A DNA stretch of 64,000 nt from Pseudomonadota bacterium. GTDB taxonomy: Bacteria > Pseudomonadota > Gammaproteobacteria > Burkholderiales > Rhodocyclaceae. The DNA lies in contig JAPLQT010000038.1 in assembly GCA_026399515.1 (NCBI GenBank), positions 31,974 through 95,973 on the forward strand, written 5' to 3'. The position numbers and the translations under genes are program-made. The notes beneath the pieces are model-generated. The model did no database searches, was not told the DNA's origin, and saw only the letters and a program-made list of their open reading frames with translations. Of the stretch, positions 33,949-41,776 are shown in pieces. How positions within the stretch are numbered: position 1 is the stretch's first letter; each line of letters starts with the position of its first letter.

Positions 33949-34929
33949 ATGAAAGGTCAACTGGGCGATGCCGGTAACACCAATAGCCTCGTGCCGAAAT
34001 CCATCGGCACCGGCTTCGCCGCGATAGCGGCGGGTGGATGGCACACCATTGCGCTCAAGTCGGACGGCAGCCTGTGGGCGTGGGGCGAGAACTTGAACGG
34101 CCGGCTTGGCGACGGCACCACCACCGATAGCCACGTTCCCAAGTTGATCGGCACCGGCTACGCCAAGATCGCGGCGGGGAGGTATCACTCGGTCGCCCTC
34201 AAGTCCGACGGTAGTCTGTGGGCGTGGGGCTACAACGGGCAAGGTGAGTTGGGCGACGGCACCACCGTCGAAAGCCACGTGCCGAAGCTGATCGGCACCG
34301 GCTATTCCGTAATTACGGCGGGGGGCAATCACACTGTTGCCCTCAAGACCGACGGCAGTCTCTGGGCCTGGGGATATAACATTTATGGTCAGCTTTCCGA
34401 CGGTACCACCCGCAACAGTCACGTACCCGAGCGGATCGGCACCGGGTACACCGAGATCGCCGCGGGACTGGACCATACCGTGGCCCTCAAGTCCGATGGC
34501 AGCTTGTGGGCGTGGGGCAGCAACGAGGAAGGCCAACTCGGCGACGGGACGACCAACGATAGCCACGTCCCCAAGCTGATCCGAGCCGGCCCGACGGCGA
34601 TTGAGTACCCGGATGCACTTGCGCCCACGGCGCCCGGTAAACCCGCGACAGCGACGACATTGCCGCCAAGCGCGGCGAACGCCGACACGAAATCCGATAC
34701 CTTGTTCAACTGGATGGAAGTGAATTACGCCGGCATGTTCGCGCCGCCTGGTTCCAAGTCGATGAGCTTCGGCCCGTATTACTTGCGCTACTATTCCGCG
34801 ACCAACGCCTATCTGCTTATCATGCCGACGAACGGTCATCTATATTATCTGGGCCCGCTGTCGGCCAACACGCATATGGATCTTGGCGCTGTCCAGACCT
34901 GGTATGCAAATGCCGGCTGCGCCTCGTGA
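33949..34929 (+). CDS. RCC1-repeat protein with a C-terminal betaproteobacterial domain
   Basis: The 326-aa protein has four to five RCC1 propeller repeats of about 50 residues (consensus ALKSDGSLWAWGxNxxGQLGDGTT). A Pro/Thr/Ala linker and a C-terminal domain of about 75 residues follow (LFNWMEVNYAGMFAPPGSK, ending WYANAGCAS). I have seen that C-terminal domain in secreted proteins of betaproteobacteria. The start falls in mid-repeat (MKGQLGDAG) and there is no signal peptide, although GGGAG precedes it by 8 bases and a TGA is just upstream in frame. The gene may have lost its 5' part, so export is doubtful. Confidence 0.8.
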   Translation: MKGQLGDAGNTNSLVPKSIGTGFAAIAAGGWHTIALKSDGSLWAWGENLNGRLGDGTTTDSHVPKLIGTGYAKIAAGRYHSVALKSDGSLWAWGYNGQGELGDGTTVESHVPKLIGTGYSVITAGGNHTVALKTDGSLWAWGYNIYGQLSDGTTRNSHVPERIGTGYTEIAAGLDHTVALKSDGSLWAWGSNEEGQLGDGTTNDSHVPKLIRAGPTAIEYPDALAPTAPGKPATATTLPPSAANADTKSDTLFNWMEVNYAGMFAPPGSKSMSFGPYYLRYYSATNAYLLIMPTNGHLYYLGPLSANTHMDLGAVQTWYANAGCAS

Positions 34930-38091: not shown

Positions 38092-39387
38092 TTAAAAGGC
38101 GTGTGCCCGCTTGAATTGTTGCCTGGCGAGCATTTCGTCGACGGAGGCGCCATAGCCGACATATAGCGCAGTACCGGAAGGCAGCGCGCGTGCATCGAAG
38201 TCCCGCAGGATGTCGAAGTTGACGGCTCCGGGTGCAGCCAAGGTCAATAATGGACCGACGGCGGCGGACCAGCCTTGGGCGGTCCTGAAATAAATCGCTG
38301 TGCCTAAAAGGGCGGCTACATAGATTTGTTGGGCGCCAATCGCAGTGGTCTGAATATTGCCGCGCGCCGAATAGGCAGCCAGCGTGCCGCTTTCCACTGT
38401 GTCGATACGATTGCCGCTGATCGTTCCCGCTGTGCCGGCGGTGAAGTTCAACTGGCGCACCAGATCATGGGTCCTGGCGGATTGGCCGCCGATGTTGTGC
38501 GCAAGGTCGATTGCATAGCGCGGCAGGGTGGATTTGACCCAGACCTCAAGCGCATTGTCTCCGGGCGCCGGGATGAAGGTCTTGATGTTGCGTGCGTAGC
38601 TGCCGTCCAGATAGGCATTGGAATAGTCGATGCCGACGGCGCTGTAGTTGAACAGTCGCAAGGCATGGGCGCCCGTCCCGTCCTGTTCGACGATGGCGGC
38701 GATCTCCAGTTTCGCGGCCGCCCCCTTCGAATCGGCCGGGAGAGAATTGCCATAACCGGGGTCGGTCCGAATGCCCTTGCCGCCATACAGATTCGCGCAA
38801 GTAGTGATGTCGTCGCCATAAAGCTCGTAGGGCGCGAGGGCGGGCATCGCGTTGTAGGGATTGGCATACATGATCGAGTAAGGATCGTCGCTGTGGTCCA
38901 ATCCGAGCAGGTGGCCGATTTCGTGGACCAGCACATTCGGGTTGTATTGGATGGCGGCGCCGATGCTGGTGCTGATGCGTATCTTGCCGCTGGTGAAATA
39001 GGTGTAATTGCTCGCCGAGTCCTCGCTGTCCGGCGCCGCGTCGGCTGCCTGAGGATAGGGCAGGGCGGCATAGCCCATCACGACTTCGCTCCTGGCGCTG
39101 GTCTGGTCCAGTGTGGTGGTCGTGGATCCGGAATATTCAGCGCTGATGTTGCACACTGCGGACCATGCATCGAAGGCGCGTTGCACAGTTGCCAGGATTG
39201 CCGCTTCGTCGGCGCCGGGCGCGATGCCAGCAGGGTTGTAGCGCCAGGAAATTCTTCCGTCACGCCATTTTCCGGGGGACATGAAATACACGCCCGAATA
39301 AGCTTCGATGGGCGCCAGCAATGCCGCCAGGAAGAAAATCAGGCAGACCAGCTTGCGCGGAGGCAAGCCCGATCCTGCCTTGGGCAT
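38092..39387 (-). CDS. Exported matrixin-type (M10-like) zinc metalloprotease
   Basis: The 431-aa protein begins with a signal peptide (RKLVCLIFFLAALLAPIEA). A compact metzincin domain holds the zinc motif HEIGHLLGLDH (H155, E156, H159, H165) and the Met-turn SIMY (M173). The remaining 250 residues look like beta-rich C-terminal domains of unknown role. The ATG overlaps the stop of the upstream RCC1 gene (TAATG), so translation is coupled. The frame is open to 39750, but that part overlaps the RCC1 gene and is not coding. Target proteins are unknown. Confidence 0.88.
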   Translation of the reverse strand: MPKAGSGLPPRKLVCLIFFLAALLAPIEAYSGVYFMSPGKWRDGRISWRYNPAGIAPGADEAAILATVQRAFDAWSAVCNISAEYSGSTTTTLDQTSARSEVVMGYAALPYPQAADAAPDSEDSASNYTYFTSGKIRISTSIGAAIQYNPNVLVHEIGHLLGLDHSDDPYSIMYANPYNAMPALAPYELYGDDITTCANLYGGKGIRTDPGYGNSLPADSKGAAAKLEIAAIVEQDGTGAHALRLFNYSAVGIDYSNAYLDGSYARNIKTFIPAPGDNALEVWVKSTLPRYAIDLAHNIGGQSARTHDLVRQLNFTAGTAGTISGNRIDTVESGTLAAYSARGNIQTTAIGAQQIYVAALLGTAIYFRTAQGWSAAVGPLLTLAAPGAVNFDILRDFDARALPSGTALYVGYGASVDEMLARQQFKRAHAF

Positions 39388-41603
39388 TATTGAGCCGCTT
39401 CGAGGTCGGCGCTCGGCATGGTCCTGAAAGTCAGGCGCCCATCGCCGATCTCGCCGAAGTAGTTCACTCCCCAGGTCCACAGGCTGCCGTCCGCCTTGAC
39501 GGCTACATTTGAGCGATTTCCCGCAGCCATGGAGACGAAGCCCGTGCCCAATTTCTGCGGTGCGGCGTTGTCGGCATCGCCGGCGTCGCCGGTGGGTGGC
39601 TTGCGATAGTCCACTCCCCAGGTCCACAGGTCGCCATCCAGCGACAGAGCGAGGACATGGCTGTCGCGCACCGACACCGTCTTCCAGCCCGAGCCCAGCA
39701 ATACCGGGCGACTGGATGCCTCGGTGGAGAATCCGAAACGGCCCAGGCAACCGGCGCCCCAGCCATACAGACTGCCATTGGCCATCAGCGCCATGCTGAA
39801 ACCGCGGCCGGCCTGGACCGACTTGAATCCGTCGCCGATCCGGACCGGGACCACGCTATCGATATTGGTGCCATTCCCGAGCTGGCCGCTGCTGTTGTCG
39901 CCCCACGCCCACAGACTGCCATCCTGCTTGATGCCCAGGCTGTGGCTGTCGCCGACGGCAATGTCGACATAGCCACTTCCGATCGCTATCGGCAGCAGTT
40001 GGGACTGGCGCGTTCCATCGCCCAGTTGCCCCGATGCATTGTTTCCCCAGGCCCACAGCGAACCGTCATCCTTGATTCCCAGGGAGTGGATACTGTGGCC
40101 GGCGATCTTCACGAATTTTTCGCCGATCTTGACCGCCTTGATGACCAGCCCGTCGGCTTGGCCGTTGCCGATTTGGCCATACATGTTGTCGCCCCAGGCC
40201 CACAGCGTATGGTCCGACTTGATTCCCCAGAAGCTGTTCCAGCCGCCTGCGATCGAGGTGTAGCCGCCGCCGACCTGGATTGGGACCGAGCGCTGGATAT
40301 ACGCCGGCCGGCTGCCGTCGCCGTATTCTCCCTGGATATTCTCGCCCCAGGCCCACACCGAACCATCCGCCTTCAGTGCGATATTCGCCTCGACGCCTGC
40401 CGCCGCCGCGACAAAGCCGGCGCTGGCGATTTGGGTCGGCAGGTAATACACGATGGGGCTGCCATCGCAAAGCTGGCCGGTCTGATTGCTGCCCCAGACG
40501 AGGGGCCTGCCGCCTTGCTTCAAGGCGGCCATATGTTCGAGACCGGACGATATTGCCGAAAAATGACCGCCGACCCTGCCGAAGGACGTCCTTCCGAAGT
40601 CATTGACGATTTGATCGCCGAGCTGGCCGAAACGGCCTCCTCCCGCGGCCAACAGATTGCCGCCGAGATCCAGTACCGCAGTGTGATAAACCCCGGCGGT
40701 CACCGCCATATAGCTGCCGGGAATCTGGATCGGCGTCGGGCTGTCGACGGTATCGCCGTTTCCCAACTGACTAAAAGAGTTCCAACCCCAAACCCAAAGC
40801 GAGCCGTCTTTCTTGATCGCCGCGCTGTGCAACGGACCGGCCGCGATCGCGCTGAAATTGGTGCCGATCTGGAGCGGGGTGCTGCTGCTGGTGAAGGTTC
40901 CGTCACCGAGCTGGCCCTTGTCGTTCTTTCCCCATGCCCACAGCGTGCCATCTTTCTTCAGTGCCAGGACATGGGAATTGCCGGCCGCCACAGACTGGTA
41001 GCCAGTGTCGATCTGGACCGGCCCCTTCTTGTCACGGAAAGTACCGTCGCCCAACTGGCCTTCGCTGTTCGAGCCCCACGCCCACAGACTGCCGTCGCTC
41101 TTGATGCCGAGCGAGAAATACCCGCCTACGGCCGCATCCACGAACCCCGTGCCCAGGACTTGGACTTGCCCGTAAACGCGCCTGGCCGATGAGCCATTGC
41201 CAAGCTGGCCGTAGGTATTTTCGCCGGCGCCCCACAGCGTGCCATCGCGCTTGATGAAAAAAGTATGGCGCCCACCCCCGGTGACCACTTTGACCGTTTC
41301 GGTGGCGACCATGATCGGCGAGCTCACCTGCGTATCCACGGCGCCCAGTTCCCCGTAAAGGTTCGCGCCGCATCCCCAGACGATGCCGTCTCGTTGCAGG
41401 ATGAAGGTCGTGCCGTTTCCGCCGGCCACTTGGGTGAAATCGGTTATCGCAACCGAATCGGCACTCGCCAGCAAACCCAGCACGCTGGCGGCGAAGGCGA
41501 ATGAATATCGCCCAGACGTTATTGGAAGGAGGCTTTTGTTTCGCGCCGCGCCGGCCTTCGATTTCGGAGCTTGACAGGGATGACCCGAGGCGCAACAGGA
41601 CAT
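39387..41603 (-). CDS. Large RCC1-repeat beta-propeller protein, probably exported
   Basis: The 738-aa protein is almost wholly RCC1 repeats: about 13 copies of a roughly 50-residue unit (GIKSDGSLWAWGxNxxGQLGDGT), enough for two seven-blade propellers. Before them is a Cys-rich N-terminus (MSCCASGHPCQ) and a hydrophobic segment (about 33-50) that may act as a late signal or anchor. AAGGAG lies 6 bases before the ATG. The metalloprotease gene overlaps its stop by one base, so the pair is made together. RCC1 propellers are binding scaffolds, so it may present substrate to, or inhibit, the protease. Confidence 0.87.
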   Translation of the reverse strand: MSCCASGHPCQAPKSKAGAARNKSLLPITSGRYSFAFAASVLGLLASADSVAITDFTQVAGGNGTTFILQRDGIVWGCGANLYGELGAVDTQVSSPIMVATETVKVVTGGGRHTFFIKRDGTLWGAGENTYGQLGNGSSARRVYGQVQVLGTGFVDAAVGGYFSLGIKSDGSLWAWGSNSEGQLGDGTFRDKKGPVQIDTGYQSVAAGNSHVLALKKDGTLWAWGKNDKGQLGDGTFTSSSTPLQIGTNFSAIAAGPLHSAAIKKDGSLWVWGWNSFSQLGNGDTVDSPTPIQIPGSYMAVTAGVYHTAVLDLGGNLLAAGGGRFGQLGDQIVNDFGRTSFGRVGGHFSAISSGLEHMAALKQGGRPLVWGSNQTGQLCDGSPIVYYLPTQIASAGFVAAAAGVEANIALKADGSVWAWGENIQGEYGDGSRPAYIQRSVPIQVGGGYTSIAGGWNSFWGIKSDHTLWAWGDNMYGQIGNGQADGLVIKAVKIGEKFVKIAGHSIHSLGIKDDGSLWAWGNNASGQLGDGTRQSQLLPIAIGSGYVDIAVGDSHSLGIKQDGSLWAWGDNSSGQLGNGTNIDSVVPVRIGDGFKSVQAGRGFSMALMANGSLYGWGAGCLGRFGFSTEASSRPVLLGSGWKTVSVRDSHVLALSLDGDLWTWGVDYRKPPTGDAGDADNAAPQKLGTGFVSMAAGNRSNVAVKADGSLWTWGVNYFGEIGDGRLTFRTMPSADLEAAQ

Positions 41604-41776
41604 GATCGACTCCTTCAGGAAACGCTTGGGTTAGAAACCTTCAACTGCGCCCATTATGCCCCTGTACTTGGATTCGAGTCGTGATTTATTGCACGGTGAT
41701 ATCGATAAATGAGAACACCACTGCTGCCATGAGCCCAGTGTTTCCGGCTTGAATAGCCACTACTTTATTATGGTCA

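Follow-up and report, generated by a model that had tools for sequence, protein, structure and literature searches.

Why should a bacterial gene for an RCC1-repeat protein run directly into a gene for a matrixin-type metalloprotease, and does the propeller do anything for the enzyme? Both genes lie in a stretch of 64,000 nucleotides (nt) from a bacterium of the Rhodocyclaceae (GCA_026399515.1, contig JAPLQT010000038.1), here called the window. The two genes overlap by one base, the protease has an intact active site, and the same two domains are found on one chain in another lineage. From this we infer one transcript, export, physical contact and a docking role. A single coupled transcript would yield both exported proteins; the matrixin would be the catalytic subunit, with a C-terminal module common to many exported proteins, and the RCC1 protein, probably two seven-bladed propellers, would be a separate extracellular subunit for recognition or docking. 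It is quite possible, though short of probable, that this subunit holds the protease on a substrate or a surface, as the hemopexin propeller does for the animal matrix metalloprotease (MMP) MMP-1, which needs these four blades to cleave triple-helical collagen (PMC1885970).

The RCC1 and matrixin genes

The first-pass annotation of the locus had described the two genes as joined by a TAATG, and this proved exact: base 39387 belongs both to the stop codon of the RCC1 gene and to the ATG of the matrixin gene (Table 1). The RCC1 gene carries an AAGGAG 6 nt ahead of its ATG, and inspection by eye found no clear Shine-Dalgarno sequence ahead of the matrixin ATG. The overlap, taken together with the lack of a clear ribosome site of the protease gene's own, makes it likely that translation of the matrixin gene is coupled to that of the RCC1 gene. 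A 552-aa open reading frame (ORF) beginning at a TTG is also listed for the matrixin, but this is not the likely start.

With regard to the protease, the annotated full zinc site and Met-turn are indeed intact. The HExxHxxGxxHS motif reads HEIGHLLGLDHS, SIMY follows, and the Pfam model Peptidase_M10 (PF00413) is matched above its cut-off over its full length. The N-terminus is hydrophobic (hydropathy 2.94 at residue 13). Only about 10 residues separate this stretch from the catalytic domain, and no pro-domain is evident by eye; however, the latency of karilysin is credited to a pro-segment of just 14 residues (PMC4404884), so the window protease may still have a short one. The structural model of the protease (mean predicted local distance difference test score, pLDDT, 36.9; 3-sequence alignment) was too poor for use. 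Its C-terminal part resembled many beta-sandwiches, with Z up to 6.9, and none of them specifically.

The RCC1 protein lies above the Pfam cut-offs for PF00415, PF13540 and PF25390, all describing tandem RCC1 repeats. About 13 repeats had been claimed; a profile hidden Markov model (HMM) of the blade, for which some of the seeds were repeats of this same protein, finds 13 complete units and one partial unit at each end (residues 54-73, at only 3.5 bits, and 708-730), and thus about 14 blades if the two terminal pieces close one blade. In the model of the protein (mean pLDDT 59.5) two lobes, at about 102-320 and 450-665, are more confident than the rest, which is compatible with the proposed double propeller without proving it, and we consider that the protein is probably two seven-bladed propellers. 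UVR8 and HERC RCC1 domains lead the Foldseek matches listed, with a large root-mean-square deviation (rmsd) over the whole length; the best match is UVR8 (E 1.6e-28, rmsd 21.8 over the whole alignment). The PDB matches listed for the protein or its model do not include BLIP-II. The best 15-residue hydropathy, 1.83, is found at residue 34. Export of both proteins, as annotated, is likely, judging from their hydrophobic N-terminal stretches.

Table 1. Features of the RCC1-matrixin pair. Positions follow the numbering of the 64,000-nt window; both genes are on the minus strand.
Feature	Position	Strand	Description or basis
RCC1-repeat gene	39387..41603	-	738 aa, about 14 blades, likely exported; Pfam RCC1 E 1e-84, RCC1_2 14 stretches
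Shine-Dalgarno-like AAGGAG of RCC1 gene	41610..41615	-	sequence
N-terminal extension and hydrophobic export-like stretch of RCC1 protein (about residues 1-52)	41448..41603	-	sequence; hydropathy
TAATG stop/start overlap of RCC1 and matrixin genes	39385..39389	-	sequence
Matrixin-type metalloprotease gene	38092..39387	-	431 aa; ATG at 39387; Pfam PF00413 49.4 bits, cut-off 24
Export-like hydrophobic N-terminus of protease (about residues 1-30)	39298..39387	-	sequence; hydropathy
M10 catalytic domain (about residues 40-202)	38782..39270	-	Pfam match over full model 1-159
Zinc site HEIGHLLGLDH, then S	38893..38925	-	sequence
Met-turn SIMY, start of SIMYANPYN (common to several relatives)	38866..38877	-	sequence
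C-terminal GYG module of protease (residues 320-431)	38095..38430	-	also carried by RCC1 proteins, a serpin, an ice-binding protein and further proteins

An M10-RCC1 fusion in another lineage

Genomes of the same family (297), order (399) and phylum (398) were sampled, and these totals, like the numbers of matching genomes given below, include the source genome. At E 1e-4 the protease is matched in 9 of the 398 phylum genomes. In one of them, G830, from a distant lineage, a single ORF (L228) has an M10 domain at residues 53-230 and seven RCC1 blades at 466-807, both above the Pfam cut-offs, with Ig-like segments (by eye) between them; it extends over 848 residues to the end of the contig, where it is still open. 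The presence of both domains on one chain supports a functional link. The other eight of the nine M10 loci found outside the source genome in this sample, some of them on short contigs, show no RCC1. A second M10 gene of G830 also lacks it. At the position of the RCC1 part, three M10 relatives that were scanned (this second gene and proteins of two congeners of G830) carry dockerin-type repeats (PF00404, E 3e-4 to 1.2e-3, all below the Pfam cut-off), and two more congeners look alike by eye. The RCC1 blades of the fusion therefore occupy a slot for accessory modules.

In a tree of 29 catalytic domains, drawn with a root for display only, the window protease falls into a group of 11 rows together with the fusion. 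The group consists of the window protease, its paralogue in the same genome, two identical Chitinimonas rows, G846 and six proteins of the G830 genus. Support for the node is 93/92 and it is not starred, so that the grouping with the fusion has fair, not strong, support. The motif MYANPYN follows the zinc site in 7 of the 11 rows, compared to 0 of 15 rows outside the group in which this stretch was displayed. Two different RCC1 associations within one small M10 group, as opposed to none at the other sampled loci, suggest function.

C-terminal modules shared by RCC1 and M10 proteins

The C-terminal region of the window protease, which we call the GYG module, matches no Pfam or NCBIfam model. 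It spans about 105 residues with GW and LYVGYG-like signatures, and it occurs terminally (at either end) or internally in very different proteins, most of which have export-like starts. Among 12 genomes chosen for related matches or as congeners, seven carry the module (7 matches in the source genome, 31 in G058 and 30 in G567), and it is found in none of the three congeners. The module-bearing loci are window positions 38095-38430, L173, L174, L179, L180, L203, L204, L206-L212 and L214-L222. Five RCC1 proteins of G415 and G567 have it, at the C-terminal end in four, whereas in one a further 115 residues or so come after it. Other carriers are matrixins, a serpin and an ice-binding protein in the source genome, and DUF1800, subtilase and PQQ-propeller proteins in G567. 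The serpin (PF00079, E 4.9e-107; L204:329-1996, contig C6) has the module in common with both matrixins of its genome, and proteases and a protease inhibitor therefore share a module.

A second C-terminal stretch, recognised by eye and called YYLGP, is alike on four RCC1 proteins of the source genome, on the M10 protein L084, on a small protein beside the paralogous M10 gene (on contig C120), and on L037, an M10-like protein without the zinc motif that scores below the Pfam cut-off. The HMM built from it matched seven proteins, which are its own seven seeds, and so brings no independent support. It thus seems that one pool of modules supplies both RCC1 and M10 proteins, which would fit a shared location without proving contact.

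Linkage in the source genome and in related genomes

Several results weigh against a docking subunit, and some of them concern the fusion itself. It is a single case, 1 of 9 M10 loci in the phylum sample, and within its genus, where the protease part is present in 5 of 11 genomes, only G830 has RCC1 on it (1 of 11). The genome of G830 is a draft, 76% complete, and the ORF runs off its contig. The order of the parts differs, the RCC1 gene coming first in the window and the RCC1 blades being C-terminal in the fusion. It should also be kept in mind that the window was chosen for its RCC1-M10 association, which leaves an independent count of one. Finally, the hemopexin propeller of MMP-1 is named for inhibitor binding too (PMC1885970), so a propeller need not mean docking.

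The distribution of the two genes points the same way. The source genome has two M10 genes and, by repeat clusters, seven RCC1 genes, of which not all begin in an export-like way. The second M10 gene (C120) follows the plan of the window protease with an extra middle segment; it adjoins a gene for a small export-like protein and has no RCC1 neighbour. The five RCC1 loci on other contigs are all without an M10 domain in their vicinity. The protease is matched in 0 of 3 congeners; RCC1 is matched in two of these, in one case weakly and with stop codons. In the family sample the protease has matches in 13 genomes at E 1e-3, nearly all of them weak, and twelve stretches from eight of these 13 contain no RCC1.

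In the order sample, 14 genomes match the protease at E 1e-5, and PF00413 is matched at E 1e-3 in 107, of which 81 are above the cut-off. Fifty-four M10 loci other than our own, 14 from the protease matches and 40 from the upper part of the PF00413 matches listed, and thus part, not all, of the M10 rows, were surveyed over about 8 kb on each side (shorter at contig ends). RCC1 was near none of the 54 by an RCC1 HMM, which was seeded from four RCC1 proteins of the source genome and finds all seven there as well as the 40 RCC1 loci of the reverse survey. Relatives of the window protease served as seeds for an M10 HMM, which re-finds the domain in 41 of the 54 at E 1e-3; the other 13 depend on the Pfam row, and several rows, which match the Pfam model only in part, may be serralysin-like. 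For the reverse survey, the RCC1 protein was matched in 35 genomes at E 1e-20. Forty RCC1 loci were taken from 30 of the 34 other matching genomes (G335, G568, G656, G680 and some further rows were left out), and M10 was near none of them by the M10 HMM, which, with 41 of 54 re-found, could miss divergent domains. A scan of the same 40 loci for HExxHxx[GN]xx[HD] gave two matches, one in an astacin and one in a doubtful ORF. A wider search of named genomes for the protease returned only two Chitinimonas loci, with no RCC1 near.

A conserved RCC1-M10 operon is thus rejected for the order sample. The linkage across genomes on which the first-pass annotation had partly staked the pairing is missing for the operon, the paralogue also standing alone, whereas the fusion in the other lineage does speak for a functional link. 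One Fisher test, run post hoc (p 0.036), included the window among its counts and took a rounded figure for the other loci; it was not relied on. In the open-licence literature no paper among those listed dealt, by its title, with an RCC1-M10 pair, and RCC1 with matrixin gave a single paper, on tumour biomarkers; this does not prove absence from print.

Comparison with known systems

One of the closest parallels is the MMP-1 type of animal enzyme, in which an M10 catalytic domain works with a beta-propeller; the G830 chain keeps the order of catalytic domain, linker domains and propeller. The blades are of the RCC1 type, about 14 in the window protein and seven in the fusion, rather than four hemopexin blades; the propeller of the window pair is a separate protein, no pro-domain was seen, and neither window protein has a hemopexin model among its Pfam matches up to E 1. 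A 2025 study reports that the abundance of microbial MMPs in marine metagenomes correlates with that of chitinases (PMC12587646), which hints that substrates may be animal-derived; a word search of this paper found no mention of hemopexin, propeller or dockerin.

Bacterial matrixins preceded by a partner gene in an operon are known from Tannerella forsythia, where potempins precede the KLIKK proteases, among them karilysin (PMC7296668). Unlike the potempins, which are small lipoprotein inhibitors, the window partner is a 738-residue RCC1 protein with no cysteine after its hydrophobic stretch (by eye), and the window protease does not end in KLIKK. Exported bacterial RCC1-type propellers are represented by BLIP-II, an inhibitor of beta-lactamases (PMC9218822), and by a Myxococcus outer-membrane-vesicle protein with RCC1 repeats (PMC4158809), so such repeats are not unusual in exported bacterial proteins. 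The window protein differs from BLIP-II in having about twice the blades of one seven-bladed ring. The dockerin-bearing M10 proteases of the G830 genus belong to the same tree group as the window protease, but have dockerin-type repeats where the fusion has RCC1, and the window protease has the GYG module.

Alternative explanations

The pair could also be a private chance operon, in which two unrelated secreted genes have become adjacent in a lineage rich in exported modular proteins and are made together without any joint work. We regard this as possible, if rather doubtful. It agrees with the lack of linkage at the 54 M10 and 40 RCC1 loci, at the second M10 locus and at the five RCC1 loci outside the window contig, and with the absence of the protease from the congeners. 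RCC1 genes may simply be dense in this genome, which has seven, one only 3.2 kb from the pair, and other M10 genes adjoin other exported genes (a subtilisin-like one in three genomes, the small protein beside the C120 paralogue). Against chance stand the overlap and the lack of a clear ribosome site for the protease, which imply coordinated synthesis, and the M10-RCC1 chain in another lineage. The chance that some RCC1 gene lies directly upstream of some M10 gene on the same strand in this genome is roughly 0.16%, an estimate that assumed 8 RCC1 genes, against 7 repeat clusters found, for a pair picked after the fact.

The first-pass annotation had left open whether the propeller is an inhibitor, a chaperone or a substrate receptor. 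As an inhibitor or immunity protein, the propeller would keep the protease capped until after its export, in the way that potempins act on KLIKK proteases and BLIP-II on beta-lactamases. The partner-first gene order of potempin operons (PMC7296668), the existence of an exported RCC1-type enzyme inhibitor (PMC9218822) and the want of an evident pro-domain all speak for it, yet the short karilysin pro-segment (PMC4404884) lessens the force of the last point, the C120 paralogue and the two Chitinimonas relatives do without an RCC1 neighbour, and a permanent inhibitor on the enzyme's own chain, as G830 would have, would be odd; we consider an inhibitor unlikely. A dedicated export or folding chaperone would suit the gene overlap, but is very improbable, given that neither the paralogue nor any other M10 locus examined has RCC1, apart from the G830 fusion, in which it sits on the M10 chain itself. 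More generally, a non-conserved operon and a paralogue without RCC1 argue against any obligatory inhibitor or chaperone. Of the annotated roles, the receptor or docking subunit is thus the one favoured by the fusion and by the lack of obligatory pairing. For the predation-like system that had also been suggested, no specific evidence was found.

The docking reading can be carried further. Bacteria would then have built an animal-like matrix metalloprotease plus propeller independently, with the RCC1 ring in the place of hemopexin. In one lineage the two parts would be fused into a single chain; in that of the window they would form a co-translated protease of two subunits, with the double ring as the exchangeable targeting subunit of an exported matrixin. 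This wider proposal is somewhat unlikely; if true, an RCC1-guided matrixin would parallel the hemopexin-guided enzymes of animals by convergence, and there would be a testable job for the RCC1 proteins that bacteria export, few of which have, to our knowledge, an assigned role. The pairing of RCC1 with M10 is rare in the genomes sampled, and the ring may help the protease to find its target.

Neighbouring genes and further observations

Upstream of the pair on the same strand, 173 bp away, lies a gene for a molybdopterin-binding oxidase subunit; the downstream same-strand neighbour, at 65 bp, has no Pfam match at E 1e-3. Another RCC1 gene, shorter than that of the pair, is found at window positions 33949-34929 on the plus strand, 3.2 kb beyond the protease gene and on the opposite strand from it. 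The listed ORF has no export-like start and is possibly truncated, or its start was missed.

The astacin of the motif scan (PF01400, E 1.5e-50) lies near a GYG-module RCC1 protein at L173 (4606-6177 and 7747-10518); the two genes are on opposite strands with one ORF between them. Within one genus of the order, three genomes (loci L079, L081 and L082) have a large gene with the subtilisin-type motif GTSMAAPH (by eye) immediately after the M10 gene, forming a recurring two-protease pair with similar C-terminal repeats. Finally, RCC1-repeat genes are also carried by viral contigs (30 loci, L093-L122), several of these loci having two or three such ORFs.

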